NCBI RefSeq assembly: GCF_005405125.1
Contig: NZ_BJDL01000013.1
Location: 1-64,000 of the forward strand
Reading direction: 5' to 3'
DNA from: Lactiplantibacillus songbeiensis
GTDB lineage: Bacteria; Bacillota; Bacilli; Lactobacillales; Lactobacillaceae
DNA length: 64,000 bases
In this document: positions 3,573 through 61,913 of the stretch, piece by piece
Layout: every line of letters starts with the position of its first letter
Position numbering within the stretch: the stretch's first letter is position 1
Program-made: the position numbers and the translations under genes
Notes under the pieces: generated by a model
What the model was told of the DNA's origin: nothing
What the model saw: only the letters and a program-made list of their open reading frames with translations
The model's database searches: none

Positions 3573-4226
3573 ATGACAGTTAATTATAAAAGTGTTTTTG
3601 ATATTATTGGGCCAATTATGATTGGACCCTCAAGTTCGCATACTGCCGGGGCCTGTGCCATTGGCCGCGCTGCCAACAGTATTTTTAAAGATAAACCGAC
3701 CGAAATCGTCATTCATTATTATGAATCATTTGCCCAGACGCACAAAGGGCATGGTACCGATTATGCGATTATCAGTGGCGTATTAGGCTTTGATCCGGAT
3801 GACAGTCGCGTGCCTTACGCGATTGGGCTAGCCCGGGATCAAGGAATTACCATTACGTTTATTGAAGAAGCCGGCGATAGTCCAATCAAGCATCCGAATA
3901 CCGCGATTGTTGATCTGGAAAATGATAGTAAGAAAGTGACAGTCGCGGGTTGTTCAATCGGTGGTGGGACAATCGAAATTCGTGAGATTAAGATGGACGG
4001 TTTTGATATTAAGCCGAAAGGGCCACTCCCAATCTTATTAGTCCAGGGCGGTGAAAATGATCATCAAAATGTGACGAAACAGTTGGCAGATTTGACCAAA
4101 GTGAATGATCAACAACGTTATCAGACTGCCCGTGGCAATATGTATGAATACGACTTGGATCGGCGCTTAAAACACGAAGAAATTACTAAGCTGGCCGAAA
4201 ATCACACGACGATGGTTTACTTATAG
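3573..4226 (+). CDS. sdaAB: L-serine dehydratase, iron-sulfur type, beta subunit
   Basis: Beta subunit (217 residues) of the two-subunit Gram-positive L-serine dehydratase, which deaminates L-serine to pyruvate and ammonia. The N-terminus carries the family signature IGPSSSHTAGA near residues 15-25 and the downstream AGCSIGGGTIEI block. The C-terminal half looks like an ACT-type regulatory fold (ILLVQGGENDHQNV). ATG 3573 follows GGAGG at 3559-3563 with a 9-base gap; an in-frame TTG at 3564 overlaps that site and is less likely. The alpha-subunit start follows the stop by 11 bases, so the two are made together. Confidence 0.93.
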   Translation: MTVNYKSVFDIIGPIMIGPSSSHTAGACAIGRAANSIFKDKPTEIVIHYYESFAQTHKGHGTDYAIISGVLGFDPDDSRVPYAIGLARDQGITITFIEEAGDSPIKHPNTAIVDLENDSKKVTVAGCSIGGGTIEIREIKMDGFDIKPKGPLPILLVQGGENDHQNVTKQLADLTKVNDQQRYQTARGNMYEYDLDRRLKHEEITKLAENHTTMVYL

Positions 4227-4237
4227 GGGTGACGAAC

Positions 4238-5128
4238 ATGTATATGAGTATCGCTGAACTAGTATCAGCATCAATGACCCAGCACCAACCGGTCTATGAA
4301 TTAATGATTGCACAAGAAATGGCGACTTCGAACTGTACACGAGAAGAAGTCTGGCATACGATGGGGCGTAACTTAGACGTCATGGAAGCCGCTGTTAAAA
4401 AAGGCGCTGCGGGTGACGGGGTTTATTCGACGACCGGTTTAACGGGTGGCGAAGCGGTATTACTAAAGAAATATCGGCAAACCGGGCACACCTTATCTGG
4501 TGACGTGATGATGCAAGCCGTTCAAAACGCGATTTCAACGAATGAAGTCAATGCGGCGATGGGGGTGGTTTGTGCAACGCCAACTGCTGGCTCAACTGGG
4601 ACATTACCTGGCGTGGTCTTTGCTTTGCAAGATCGCTTGGACTTGACCCGTGATCAGATGATTCAGTTCTTATTTACGGCGGGGGCCTATGGTATGGTGA
4701 TTGCTAATAACGCTAGTATTGCTGGTGCCACGGGTGGCTGCCAAGCGGAAGTCGGTAGTGCTTCAGCGATGGGGGCCGCGGCCGCGGTTGAAATTGCTGG
4801 CGGGACCGCTGAACAGAGTGCCGAAGCTTTGGCGATGGCCATCAGTAATTTATTAGGGCTAGTTTGTGATCCAGTCGCTGGCTTAGTTGAATTACCGTGC
4901 GTAAAACGGAATGCTATCGGGGTTAGCAATGCGTTAATTGCCGCTGATATGGCATTGGCGGGCTGTACCAATAAGATTCCAGCCGATGAAGTGATTATGG
5001 CGATGGATAAAGTTGGTAAGGGCTTGCCTAGAGCTTTACGGGAAACCGGCCTGGGGGGCTTAGCAGCAACGCCAACTGCCATTCGTATGGAAGAAAAGAT
5101 TTTTGGTAAAGCCCAAGCTAAAGCTTAA
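4238..5128 (+). CDS. sdaAA: L-serine dehydratase, iron-sulfur type, alpha subunit
   Basis: Catalytic subunit of 296 residues. In this family conserved cysteines hold a 4Fe-4S cluster that binds the serine hydroxyl. Candidate cysteines are visible in SNCTREEVW, VCATPTAGSTG, GGCQAEVG and CDPVAGLVELPC. Glycine-rich segments (GATGGCQAEVGSASAMGAAAA) are typical. ATG 4238 is preferred because AGGGG lies 8 bases upstream and overlaps the stop of sdaAB; a GTG at 4229 would sit inside that site. It is the last gene of the operon, and a weak stem with a TTTTTT tail lies near 5146-5172. Its role here is serine catabolism to pyruvate. Confidence 0.94.
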   Translation: MYMSIAELVSASMTQHQPVYELMIAQEMATSNCTREEVWHTMGRNLDVMEAAVKKGAAGDGVYSTTGLTGGEAVLLKKYRQTGHTLSGDVMMQAVQNAISTNEVNAAMGVVCATPTAGSTGTLPGVVFALQDRLDLTRDQMIQFLFTAGAYGMVIANNASIAGATGGCQAEVGSASAMGAAAAVEIAGGTAEQSAEALAMAISNLLGLVCDPVAGLVELPCVKRNAIGVSNALIAADMALAGCTNKIPADEVIMAMDKVGKGLPRALRETGLGGLAATPTAIRMEEKIFGKAQAKA

Positions 5129-7163: not shown

Positions 7164-7276
7164 GCTTGGTACTAGTTAAAATTGCCGCTTGCCGGTTGGC
7201 TAAAAGATAACTATCTGGTAATTAACGCCGATTCTGGTCCAACCAGAGTGGCAACTTAAGCTGACTAGCACCAAGC
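7164..7276 (-). repeat. Copy A of the intergenic structured repeat (deletion form)
   Basis: Only the two ends of the repeat remain. The left end, GCTTGGTACTAGTT with TTGCCGCTTGCCGGTTGG, matches the left end of copy B. The right end, GATTCTGGTCCAACCAGAG with CTAGCACCAAGC, matches its right end. The central folded units are missing. The element is non-coding and about 113 bp. Confidence 0.8.
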
Positions 7277-9051: not shown

Positions 9052-9450
9052 ATGGTTACTTTATATACATCACCAAGCTGCATGTCATGTCGGAAAGCAA
9101 AGATTTGGTTACGGCTGCATGCCATTGACTTTGAAGAACGGAATATTTTTACCACACCACTTTCAATCGATGAAATTAAAGGCATTTTACAAATGACCGA
9201 AGATGGGACTGAAGAAATTATTTCGACACGTTCCAAGGCCTTTCAGCGCCTGAATGTTGATATTGATGATTTATCGTTGACGCAACTCTATGATTTAATC
9301 AGTCGGGAACCGAGCATCCTACGCCGGCCAATCATGCTAGATGATAAACGGCTACAGGTCGGTTATAATGAGGATGAAATCCGCCGCTTTTTACCACGCC
9401 GGGTTCGAACATTGGAATTAGAAAAAGTGTGGCATTTGGCCAGCATCTAA
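9052..9450 (+). CDS. spx: Transcriptional regulator Spx
   Basis: 132 residues of the ArsC/Spx family. Spx binds the C-terminal domain of the RNA polymerase alpha subunit and reprogrammes transcription under thiol stress. The redox CxxC switch is visible as CMSC at residues 10-13, and [14 protein letters not shown]-type and [20 protein letters not shown] segments are conserved. AAGGAGG (9033-9040) precedes the ATG. Its adaptor SpxH and the ClpC adaptor MecA are encoded a few genes downstream, as in bacilli. It has its own promoter and terminator. Confidence 0.95.
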
Positions 9451-9456
9451 GTACTG

Positions 9457-9494
9457 AATTGACTAGTGTGGTGACGAACCTAGTCAATTTTTTA
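9457..9494 (+). terminator. Terminator after spx
   Basis: AATTGACTAG (9457-9466) pairs with CTAGTCAATT (9480-9489), then a T-run. Confidence 0.85.
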
Positions 9495-9587
9495 GTTTTC
9501 AGATAGATTACTTTACAATCCGCTGAAATAAGTTAGAATTGTGATAGTGATTATGGCCCTTGACACTTAGAAAGGGGTGGATCTGTA

Positions 9588-21174: not shown

Positions 21175-21240
21175 GTTTCAACTTGAGTCAGCGACCTCAG
21201 TCTAATGAATTGTGAACATATGGTATGATGGGAATAATAC

Positions 21241-21639
21241 GCTTGGTGCTGGTTGAAATTACCGCCTGCCGGTTGATTTCTAAAACGCTGGAACACCATG
21301 GACCATTTTGAAGCCAAACCGGTCTTCAAAGCTGGCCTTGGCCTAAATTCGGGAAAAATACTCGCACTAAGGTCAACGACACGGCTAAGCATTTTGGCAA
21401 CCAACGGCTCAGCTAAATGACCGGGTTGAAAATAATCAATCGTTAATTTTTAAATATCCGTTAGTTAACGGCGGGCGGGCCAGAATTGGCTCAGTGGTGT
21501 CGTTTATCTTGGTCGGTGATTTTCTGACTTAGATAAAGCCCGGCTTGCGAGACCGTTCTGTGGCTTGCAAACGTGGCCACCATGTTCCAGCCAATTCTGG
21601 CCCAACCAGAGTGGCAATTTAAGCCAACTAGCACCAAAC
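21241..21639 (-). repeat. Copy B of the intergenic structured repeat (full length)
   Basis: About 400 bp, non-coding. It begins GCTTGGTGCTGGTTGAAATT and ends CAACTAGCACCAAACG, so the ends are inverted repeats. The right half holds hairpins TTTATCTTGGTC..GACTTAGATAAA and TTGCGAG..CTTGCAA. The left half, read on the plus strand, resembles the reverse complement of the right half (CTGGAACACCATGG, then TTTGAAG..CTTCAAA). The whole is therefore an inverted dimer of one folded unit. The right end lies 36 bases before the rlmA start. Confidence 0.9.
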
Positions 21640-21674
21640 GTGGGACTAAGATAAATTTGGAAAGTGTGAAAATA

Positions 21675-22532: not shown

Positions 22533-22696
22533 GCTAAGGGCGCTTGCATGATTGGTAAGCCGGTGTTAAGATTGCCATTGAGAAATCGTTTGGTAGCTAA
22601 CATCGATCAACATCGTTGGTGACTACCGAGTTGAACTTCATTAACGTAGCGTTTCGCCGTGCCCACACCGAAATACTGCGTTTTTTTACGGTCTAA

Positions 22697-25611: not shown

Positions 25612-25934
25612 GTTTGGTGCTAGTTGGATTAAATTGTCACTCTGGTTGGGCCAGAATCGGCTGGAACGTGGTGGCCACGTTTTCGAGCCACAGTGCGGTC
25701 TCGAAAGCCGGGCTTTATCTAAGTCGGAACATCACCGACTAAGATAAACGACACCACTGAGCCAATCCTGGCCCGCCCGACGTTAACTAACGGGAATTGA
25801 AAAATTAACGATTGATTATTTTCAGTTCAGTCATTTAGCCGAGCCGTTGATTTCTAAAATGCTCAGCCGTGTCGTTGGCGTTCCAGCGTTTTAGGACCCA
25901 ACCGGCAGGCGGCAATTTCAACTGGCACCAAGCG
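25612..25934 (+). repeat. Copy C of the intergenic structured repeat
   Basis: About 323 bp in the orientation opposite to copy B. It begins TTTGGTGCTAGTTGG and ends CAACTGGCACCAAGCG. It contains the complete first folded unit, with hairpins TTTCGAG (25681-25687)/CTCGAAA (25700-25706) and TTTATCTAAGTCGG..CCGACTAAGATAAA. The second unit is mostly deleted, leaving GTGTCGTTGGCGTTCCAGC. It sits between the trmL terminator and ftsK. Confidence 0.9.
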
Positions 25935-35247: not shown

Positions 35248-35540
35248 CTTAGTGCTAGTTGGGTTAAATTGCCACTCTGGTTGGGCCAGAATCGGCTGGA
35301 ACGTGGTGGCCACGTTTGGAAGCCAAAGAACGGTCTTCCAAGCCGGGCTTTATCTAAGTCGGAAAATCACCGACTAAGATAAATGACACCATTGAGCCAA
35401 TTCTGGCCCGCCCGGCGTTAACTAACGGATATAAAAGAATCAACGAATGATTATTTTCAGTTCAGTCATTTAGCCGTGTCGTTGGCGGCTAGTATTTTAG
35501 AAACCAACCGGCAGACAGCAATTTCAACTAGCACCAAACG
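35248..35540 (+). repeat. Copy D of the intergenic structured repeat, inside the dcw cluster
   Basis: About 293 bp in the same orientation as copy C. It begins CTTAGTGCTAGTTGGG and ends CAACTAGCACCAAACG. The first folded unit is complete; its hairpin arms are TTGGAAG (35316-35322) and CTTCCAA (35335-35341). The second unit is nearly all deleted. It lies between mraY and murD, which are usually only a few bases apart in this cluster. Confidence 0.9.
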
Positions 35541-44097: not shown

Positions 44098-44140
44098 GTC
44101 GACTAAAATCAGAGGTATCAATTAAATTTATCTAATATTT

Positions 44141-44362
44141 TGAAGAGAATAGCAAACAACTTTGTGATACGCACAGAGAGCCGCCGATAATGGGAACGCG
44201 GTCGTCCCTCACTTTGTTGCAGATCGTCTCTGAATGTCGGCCTGAATTTGTAGTAAGGTCAACCGGTTCATGACCGTTAACCATGCTAAGAGAGAATCTA
44301 AGCAATTCTAAAATTGGGTGGTACCACGATAACTTCGTCCCTAGCCGGGCGGAGTTTTTTTG
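44141..44362 (+). promoter_or_regulatory. T-box riboswitch, isoleucine specific, controlling ileS
   Basis: The T-box core GGGTGGTACCACG is at 44316-44328. A terminator follows (ACTTCGTCCC / GGGCGGAGT, then seven T, about 44331-44362). The distal part of stem I holds AGAGAGCCG..CGCGG, and the 3' side of the specifier loop reads GCAGATCG, giving an isoleucine ATC specifier at 44223-44225. The region 44098-44409 holds no gene. Confidence 0.92.
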
Positions 44363-47275: not shown

Positions 47276-47454
47276 TGGTTTGATCGTTGTTTCGCCGTCT
47301 CCGTTGCCCCAACTAGAGTGGGTAATACCAATGAATCTCGAACAATAATGGCTACAGTCAGGTAATTTGGTTCTTGGTAATTGAAATATGTTTAAAAAGT
47401 AAGTATGATAGTGAAGTAGCTTATAACCAGAGATTATAAAAAGATAGGATGCTG

Positions 47455-50108: not shown

Positions 50109-50470
50109 CGCTTGGTGCTAGTTGAAATTGCTGGTTGCCGGTTAGTTCCTAAAATGCTGGAACGCCATTGGTCATGGCCCGAGAAAACCACTCGCACTAT
50201 GGTCAATGACACGGCTGAGTTTTTTAGAACGCAACTTCTCGGATAAATAACTGAATTGAGAATAATCAATTGTTATTTTTTTATATCTGTTAGTTAACGT
50301 CGGGCGGTCCAGAATTGGCTCAGTGGTGTCGTTTATCTTGGTCGGTGGTTTTCCGACTTAGATAAAGCCCGGCTTTCGAGACCGCTCTGTGGCTCGAAAA
50401 CGTGGCCACCACGTTCCAGCCGATTCTGGACCAACCAGAGTGGCAAGCTAATCCCATTAGCACTAAGCGT
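50109..50470 (-). repeat. Copy E of the intergenic structured repeat
   Basis: About 362 bp, same orientation as copy B. It begins CGCTTGGTGCTAGTTGAAAT and ends CATTAGCACTAAGCG. The right folded unit is complete (TTTATCTTGGTCGG..CCGACTTAGATAAA and TTTCGAG..CTCGAAA). The left unit is shortened by a central deletion. It fills the mtnN to cysteine desulfurase gap. Confidence 0.9.
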
Positions 50471-55613: not shown

Positions 55614-55654
55614 TGGCGTTAAAGTTTGGCCGTACGATCCATATTAGGCAACCG

Positions 55655-56027
55655 GCTTGGTGCTAGTTAAAAATTGGCGCCTGCTGGTTGGTTTCTAAAA
55701 TCGTCATGGGTCATTTTGAAAAGCCATGATCTTCACAACTAGCCCTGGTCTAAGTCTGAACAGACCGCTCACACTAAGGCCAACGACACGGCTTAGCATT
55801 TTAGGAACCAACTTCTCGGCTAAATTTATGGCCGCTAATAAATAATCATTAATTCCCGGTAGTTAACGTCGGGCGGGTCAGAATTGGCTCAGTGGTGTCG
55901 TTTATCTTAGTCGGTGATTTTCCGACTTAGATAAAGCCCGGCTTTCGAGACCGCTCTGTGGCTCGAAAACGCGGCCACCACGTTCCAGCCGATTCTGGCC
56001 CAACCAGAGTGGCAATTTAATCACCAA
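55655..56027 (-). repeat. Copy F of the intergenic structured repeat
   Basis: About 373 bp, same orientation as copies B and E. It begins GCTTGGTGCTAGTTAAAAAT. Both folded units are present, the left one diverged. The right end stops at AATTTAATCACCAATC, so the outer terminus CTAGCACCAAGC is damaged. The remaining gap to the next gene (56028-56239) holds no recognised feature. Confidence 0.88.
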
Positions 56028-61656: not shown

Positions 61657-61777
61657 GGTTAGTGGCCTCCTTGAAGTGTACTTAAGTTCTAATTTACTTG
61701 GTTTAGTTGGAAAAGACTAGGGTAAATTGCAAAATAGATTATTTTAAATCGCTAGTGTTGACCCACTTGGTGTTCGG

Positions 61778-61885
61778 TCAACTGGCGAACAGGCTGGACC
61801 TTTTGAAGGCACGCTACGTGCTTCGAAACTGAGCTTGATCTAAGCTCGAGAAAGCCATGTGTTCTCAATGTGTGGTTAACATAAT
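61778..61885 (+). repeat. Possible relict of the intergenic structured repeat
   Basis: CTGGACCTTTTGAAGG..TGCTTCGAAACTGAGCTT followed by GATCTAAGCTCGAGAAA has the same order of blocks as the left unit of copy B (CTGGAAC, TTTTGAAG, CTTCAAAGCTGG, CTTGGCCTAA). It folds into a hairpin of its own (TTTTGAAGGCACG against CGTGCTTCGAAA). It is much diverged. The rest of 61657-61991 holds the promoter below and nothing else recognised. Confidence 0.4.
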
Positions 61886-61913
61886 TCTAATTTATCGAAG
61901 CTGATTGTCACTT

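Follow-up and report, generated by a model that had tools for sequence, protein, structure and literature searches.

A MITE-like intergenic repeat family of Lactiplantibacillus songbeiensis with two facing units and a covariation-supported three-way-junction fold

Introduction

What is the intergenic repeat that recurs along a contig of Lactiplantibacillus songbeiensis, what does it carry, and what could move it? The stretch of DNA analysed here (NZ_BJDL01000013.1, positions 1 to 64,000; hereafter the window) holds six copies of it, A to F. An initial annotation, made from the letters of the window, had described them as non-coding elements with common inverted termini and had proposed that the full element consists of two copies of one folded unit facing each other, that the shorter copies are deletion forms, and that the whole is mobile and MITE-like. 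Bacterial MITEs are usually seen as passive insertion-sequence scraps.

Results

Six copies in the window and their limits

All six copies are real and lie at or within about 1 base of the limits first proposed; the exact limits of copy B are 21240-21640. The inverted termini are common to five of them (A to E), and copy F, to which they had also been ascribed, was found to lack the right terminus. Allowing up to 3 mismatches, the terminal 14-mer occurs 18 times in the window, whereas 100 shuffles gave 5.0 on average and never more than 10. As had been noted, there is no coding in any copy, the longest stop-free runs being 27 to 70 codons. A listed open frame from 21573 reaches into the right end of B only with its most upstream start. 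The features are as follows.

7164..7276, no strand: copy A, both ends, units deleted
21229..21239, no strand: left target-site duplication of B, TGGGAATAATA
21240..21640, no strand: copy B, full-length, both units (sequence comparison, empty site)
21240..21254, plus strand: left terminal inverted repeat of B (terminal 14-mer search)
21269..21407, minus strand (predicted folding strand; model strand plus): left unit of B, 106 bits
21472..21609, plus strand (predicted folding strand; model strand minus): right unit of B, 132.6 bits
21626..21640, minus strand: right terminal inverted repeat of B (terminal 14-mer search, genus end search)
21641..21651, no strand: right target-site duplication of B, TGGGACTAAGA
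25612..25934, no strand: copy C (L. dongliensis has a remnant here that is shorter and different)
25642..25779, minus strand: complete right-type unit of C, 141.5 bits
25844..25905, plus strand: left-unit remnant of C, 37.7 bits
35248..35540, no strand: copy D, between mraY and murD
35277..35414, minus strand: complete right-type unit of D, 144.1 bits
50109..50470, no strand: copy E (L. dongliensis site empty)
50138..50237, minus strand: degraded left unit of E, 41.1 bits
50301..50438, plus strand: complete right-type unit of E, 144.4 bits
55655..56027, no strand: copy F, lacking the right terminus (55617-55994 has no L. dongliensis counterpart)
55684..55814, minus strand: degraded left unit of F, 60.2 bits
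55870..56007, plus strand: complete right-type unit of F, 143 bits
about 61763..61893, minus strand: weak seventh unit remnant (covariance model 18.5 bits, E 0.022; profile E 2.5e-7)

The two halves of B can be aligned over 118 columns at 70% identity; a profile started from the right unit retrieves the left unit with an E value of 1.8e-29, and profiles from either half find both. The covariance model that the initial annotation had suggested building finds both B units, at 132.6 and 106 bits. By these comparisons the left and right halves descend from one unit, and the idea of a facing pair of one folded unit is confirmed by the profiles, the covariance model and the paired mutations described below. 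Copy A keeps both ends, as described, and has no unit, and one complete unit is present in each of C, D and E, to which F has to be added. These complete units score 141.5 to 144.4 bits, and the partner is absent (D) or degraded (37.7 to 60.2 bits). The shorter copies can accordingly be read as deletion forms, which fits A to F, or the solo units could be a form of their own.

The repeats had been left unmatched to a named family, and we found no match to Rfam release 15 in any copy, searching the whole window at gathering scores and copy B alone with E up to 5. The Rfam matches elsewhere in the window were two T-box leaders and a 23S-methyl RNA motif (684-886, 22587-22687, 44131-44345).

Copy number and mobility

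The genome of the window species (3.03 Mb, 50 contigs) has at least 40 places with 81 to 100% identity over most of B among the best 40 of 347 candidates. Using the covariance model, we counted 5 elements with a complete unit (at least 125 bits) in the window and 12 in 160 kb outside it, the latter being eight 20-kb stretches of the same genome picked irrespective of the repeat; two units facing each other 542 bases apart at one locus (L286) were tallied as two elements. Extrapolation gives approximately 230 elements per genome.

The MraY proteins of the window species and of Lactiplantibacillus dongliensis 218-3 are 100% identical, and the two species are close. Comparison with the latter, of the kind that had been suggested for finding target duplications, showed that the site of copy B is empty there. 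The 11-base target is single in L. dongliensis (TGGGACTAAGA) and doubled in the window, as an 11-bp duplication with two differences between its copies. Copy E is also missing from L. dongliensis, which has an element of its own, in opposite orientation, about 27 bases further on. Copy D is present between mraY and murD in both sister species and was not seen, as judged by eye, in eight other mraY-murD loci (seven named Lactiplantibacillus species and one MAG). The gap between these genes in L. plantarum EGD-AQ4 (L025, ~3970-4270) holds a different insert, CTAGTTCC...GGAACTAG. A separate locus of L. dongliensis (L267, ~9187-9509) retains an older, diverged stretch, to the eye derived from a unit, and the window has only a 30-base remnant of it at 47280-47309.

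Target duplications were detected in 14 of 36 full copies, vs. 0.59 on average in 1000 shuffles, none of which gave more than 5; they measure 9 to 11 bases in 12 of the 14, with 11 bases the commonest, and the remaining 22 copies have no duplication above threshold.

Ends and the IS982-type transposase

The inverted ends of B read CGYTTGGTGCTAGTT. Among the 21 genomes of the genus this sequence occurs without mismatch 74 times in the window species, 62 times in G004, 8 in G010, 4 in G002 and once in G012; there were zero occurrences in the other 16, and the reversed control was never found. In the congener G010 two such ends bound a 956-bp element whose one open frame, of 290 codons, scores 219 bits with the IS982-family model NF033520 (cut-off 130) and also matches Pfam DDE_Tnp_1_3; ATCAATTA flanks this element on both sides. 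By eye, the same ends stand at the start of two G004 contigs. In another genome, G019, two IS982-type genes with equal scores lie in opposite orientation about 1 kb apart.

A matching transposase, for which the initial annotation had suggested looking, exists in a congener, and the own assembly has no intact IS982 element with these ends, only a decayed relative with 59% identity. No relative of the G010 transposase was found at E 1e-10 in eight other unit-bearing genomes, including G002, which has the ends. Because of these eight genomes the IS982 transposase is not demonstrable as a general mover, and such a role across all genera is unsupported. As judged by eye, likeness to the insertion sequence is confined to about 18 terminal bases, and the interior is folded unit instead of IS982-derived sequence.

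The repeats have the features by which MITEs are recognized: they are short and non-coding, with terminal inverted repeats, a target-site duplication and ends common to an autonomous transposon. The empty site, the duplications and the transposase-bearing element with the same ends all speak for a mobile, MITE-like element, as had been suspected. We conclude that the repeats are MITE-like elements probably moved in trans by an IS982-type transposase.

Three-way-junction fold of the unit

The unit of approximately 140 nt folds, as its covariation shows, into a three-way junction, with an outer stem P1, an internal loop GGAAC/TG, a stem P2 and hairpins P3 and P4. From 153 units, 42 remained at less than 90% identity and 34 after 8, mostly damaged or odd, had been removed by eye, a step that favours the structure. 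In these 34 units the 51 pairs of the four helices are formed in 93.2% of cells, and 35 of the 51 have changed on both sides; the structure was hand-drawn on this very alignment, which favours it against slides, and sliding the partners by one column left 44.7 to 50.0% paired. Doubly changed cells numbered 296 vs. 93 in shuffles, and none of 500 shuffles scored as high in four measures and one in the number of further pair types. When all 113 and 104 model matches were taken, including damaged units and reversed reads, the paired share of cells was 92.2% and 93.8%. Unguided RNAalifold gave the same junction minus the upper part of P4, and the minimum-energy folds of three single units show the same junction on both strands (z -7.3 to -10.2).

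Results from other species were alike. In 50 units (matches with E up to 1e-10, model-aligned and so leaning towards the model; at least two of the loci, L234 and L235, come from species with seed units, G015 and G008) 93.7% of cells are paired and 45 of the 51 pairs have changed on both sides. Double-changed cells amount to 554 vs. 143 in shuffles; of 500 shuffles none reached the observed value in four measures, and 5 did so in the fifth. When the same units are aligned by MAFFT without guidance, the fold has a like shape, and the unpaired GGAAC bases are kept in 47 of the 50. A chance palindrome is ruled out by the terminal-repeat and covariation shuffles. P3 of copy D differs block-wise from its L. 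dongliensis ortholog, and the rest of the unit hardly differs; since whole hairpins can be swapped between copies in this way, the double changes cannot all be counted as independent compensations.

Strand preference of the fold

Where one strand pairs G with U, the opposite strand has an A.C mismatch, and counts of the two tell the strands apart. On the modelled strand the 50 other-species units have 97 A.C vs. 22 G.U cells, 25 of the A.C cells being from one mostly non-pairing column; without this column the counts are 72 vs. 20 (columns 20 vs. 3, p 0.0005), and with one vote per genome and column (23 genomes) 50 vs. 17. The reverse of the model strand is the more stable in 44 of the 50. An earlier, overlapping set of 27 units gave columns of 16 vs. 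1 and a more stable reverse strand in 23. The G.U/A.C asymmetry shows statistically that folding is favoured on a single strand, which runs from the centre of the pair outward. The G.U/A.C counts and the reverse-strand stability overturned the model strand as the RNA strand.

Compensatory changes and a one-strand wobble preference, the marks of a structured RNA, are therefore both seen across species, but inside the genus the strand preference is only weakly visible. There, columns richer in G.U vs. richer in A.C number 21 vs. 23 in the own genome, 8 vs. 12 in G001 and 15 vs. 16 in G010, G002 and G014 together, yet the reverse strand has the greater stability in 71 of 99, 16 of 22 and 26 of 36 units, respectively. 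In copy D the folding strand is the less stable (-70.9 vs. -71.5).

We also compared right-type and left-type units, as far as a motif filter could type them. Right-type units of the own genome (n=40) have 8 G.U, 20 A.C (p 0.04 for these two) and 32 doubly changed cells, the last figure being inflatable by subfamilies and gene conversion. Left-type units (n=36) have 40 G.U, 36 A.C and 11 doubly changed cells, with 97 single vs. 11 double changes. In congeners G.U and A.C number 8 and 8 in right-type units (n=36) and 3 and 19 in left-type ones (n=16). Right units of the own genome thus seem to be under constraint, and its left units resemble decaying copies.

Retention and diversity of the units

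Each of the 17 elements of the window and the 160 kb has one unit of at least 125 bits. Two of the partners exceed 100 bits, two score 60 to 67 and seven 27 to 41, and six elements yielded no partner at E 0.01; the 12 elements outside the window fall into these classes as 1, 1, 5 and 5. All 12 complete units inspected are of the right type. Two readings fit this: selection retains the right units, or the solo units are a separate form. Among 36 copies, diversity is 0.104 and 0.092 in the units, 0.247 in the centre, and 0.110 and 0.155 at the ends.

Distribution in Lactobacillaceae

Matches to the model (E up to 0.001) are present in 19 of the 21 genomes of the genus, from 16 to at least 150 in each (at least 150 in G000 and G004); G018 and G019, which are placed in the genus, gave no unit match. 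In the family, at least 88 of 301 genomes and at least 14 of 40 genera have a match at the same threshold among the best 10 candidates per genome. A class sample, searched with stricter filters and the best 8 candidates per genome, gave no match at E up to 1e-4 in 397 other genomes, at least two of which are Lactobacillaceae; of all 398 only the own genome matched, and the model is therefore specific.

The convergent pair was found also in G010, G002, G014, G287, G016, G017 and G230, and in G001 with a weak second unit, which is a variant with an extra hairpin; the ends of the G001 element differ. At one locus, L285, two units point in the same direction. In G287 the outer sequence reads, by eye, TACGTTTAGTCAAGG. 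Several elements of that genome (L269-L278) adjoin terminator-like hairpins, e.g., CTGGGACAAAACGCCCAG, on their outer sides; the elements may prefer such targets. Judged by these matches, the fold is spread through the family and recurs as facing pairs in other genera with different ends.

Cargo of plasmids or phages was considered as well: positions 50280-50470 of the window were unmatched in 72,556 plasmid and 50,697 phage records, in a search for DNA similarity to this one unit. Viral contigs gave one 18-base match to it.

A second repeat at the P3 loop

The own genome has a 25-base repeat end, GTTCCAACTTTTGGGGTACRCCTCA, at 15 places, at least 14 of these within about 80 bases of a contig end, and the other 20 genomes of the genus lack it. 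It adjoins the P3 loop in all 12 fetched cases (L305-L316), the unit being left-type in 11, and no transposase was seen at these sites. We take it to resemble the end of an IS3/IS150-type insertion sequence. REP palindromes are known to be targeted by some insertion sequences, e.g., IS1397 and ISKpn1 (PMC1525189).

Gene context

Of 62 right-type units, at loci mostly chosen by similarity and with open frames alone taken as genes, 58 have a gene on both sides. The pairs are tandem in 30, divergent in 17 and convergent in 11, close to the background of 67, 26 and 25. In the 30 tandem pairs the predicted folding strand has the direction of the genes 13 times and the opposite one 17 times, which disfavours a cis-acting RNA aligned with genes, such as a fixed leader or trailer. 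A simple consensus scan of copy B found no promoter and no terminator signal inside it, which leaves an internal promoter without a candidate there.

Discussion

The explanation that we consider probable is a non-autonomous, MITE-like transposon with two facing folded units, likely read as RNA within transcripts that run through it. An IS982-family transposase made elsewhere would cut and join the ends in the window species and its nearest relatives, and insertion would duplicate mostly 9 to 11 bases of an AT-rich target. The unit would act single-stranded, most likely as RNA within read-through transcripts, and because the pair is inverted a transcript from either side would hold one correctly oriented unit. 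The unit would probably render the insertion harmless or useful to the host, which is our conjecture. RNA in read-through transcripts is weakly preferred, with single-stranded DNA close behind.

In DNA, G.T pairs are better tolerated than A.C, and the strand preference would fit a fold that works as single-stranded DNA too. Such a fold might be extruded in replication, transfer or repair and recognized by a DNA-processing enzyme, as in REPINs and integron attC sites, the IS982 ends being a later addition in one species group. The even gene orientation, the missing promoter in copy B and the facing pairs with other ends in several genera are all consistent with it, and the IS-end-like repeat adjoining the P3 loop in 12 of 12 ends suggests that the hairpin is visible as DNA. 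Target duplications and IS982 ends, however, suggest a DDE transposase in this group, and we regard this alternative as rather unlikely. We think it less probable still that the fold is functionless MITE cargo inherited from a source element, with the covariation produced by hairpin-templated repair and by gene conversion perfecting the palindromes. The exchange of a P3 block in copy D between sister species would be expected of it, as would the near balance of G.U and A.C in the genus and the left-type copies of the own genome, which decay by single changes (97 vs. 11 double). Yet templated repair has no evident reason to spare the unpaired GGAAC (47/50) or to favour one strand; the units are also less diverse than the centre, and 13 of the 17 elements keep one complete unit with the partner weak or not found.

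A bidirectional terminator or insulator that shields neighbouring genes from read-through would profit from folds as stable as -68 to -83 kcal/mol (three single units, both strands), and several G287 elements adjoin terminator-like hairpins by eye. However, copy B has no terminator-like site, and a strong stop to transcription at copy D, in the mraY-murD gap, would do harm unless a separate promoter serves murD; we hold such a role to be very improbable.

The partnership of IS982 with a MITE is not new, since an IS982-linked MITE is known from Cardinium (passages of PMC9769881). This MITECca01 is likewise short, without transposase, mostly intergenic (169 copies there) and has IS982-family-like ends. 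According to the same passages it is a shrunken insertion sequence of about 240 bp; in contrast, the interior of the repeats described here is not visibly IS-derived and has a conserved fold, and they occur also in genomes without a found relative of the transposase. REPIN/BIME elements, in the passages of PMC3116915, are also high-copy extragenic inverted doublets with a spacer less conserved than the units, with compensatory changes and predicted folding as ssDNA or mRNA. The facing doublet that defines their extragenic palindromic units is found here, together with many solo units. Unlike their short single hairpin (PMC3116915, same passages), the unit here is branched and about 140 nt long, with target duplications and IS982 ends, and this length also falls outside the 20-40 bp given for a REP unit in a passage of PMC3733652.

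The bcr elements of the Bacillus cereus group (passages of PMC6542083) are similarly 100-400 bp long, mostly chromosomal and group-specific, with up to 130 copies. Their mobility is tied to a TTTAT motif, and an inverted three-way-junction dimer is not described in those passages. MRSC-type motifs, as presented in part of PMC11109978, are also covarying, structured, present in many copies and inconsistently oriented to genes, but MRSC-65-2 is a single long stem, unlike the three-way junction here. Among the open-licence papers listed, PMC2864571 included, titles and the openings of abstracts gave no description of the repeat family. PMC2267715 and PMC1590033 each have a passage that names Lactobacillus johnsonii, and a term search for Lactobacillus found nothing in the main text of PMC8632094, PMC11109978 and PMC6429828.

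The unusual feature is thus the cargo, two convergent three-way-junction units of approximately 140 nt. We see here a MITE with structured cargo, and there is a real chance that the unit merits a class of its own. A wider reading, which we entertain with some doubt, is that of a family-wide new class: a three-way-junction RNA or ssDNA unit in tens to hundreds of copies in many Lactobacillaceae genomes, often as convergent pairs, with the fold under strand-specific selection and the ends exchanged between lineages, the unit being the lasting entity.

A conserved fold in at least 14 of 40 genera, with ends that differ in the few species compared, suggests that it is the fold itself that persists. 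With the covariance model and the empty sites, the RNA and DNA readings are both testable. As single-stranded DNA the unit would work in the manner of a REP or attC hairpin of very large size; should it act as RNA, an unrecognized regulatory or processing element would lie at many intergenic sites of food and gut bacteria.
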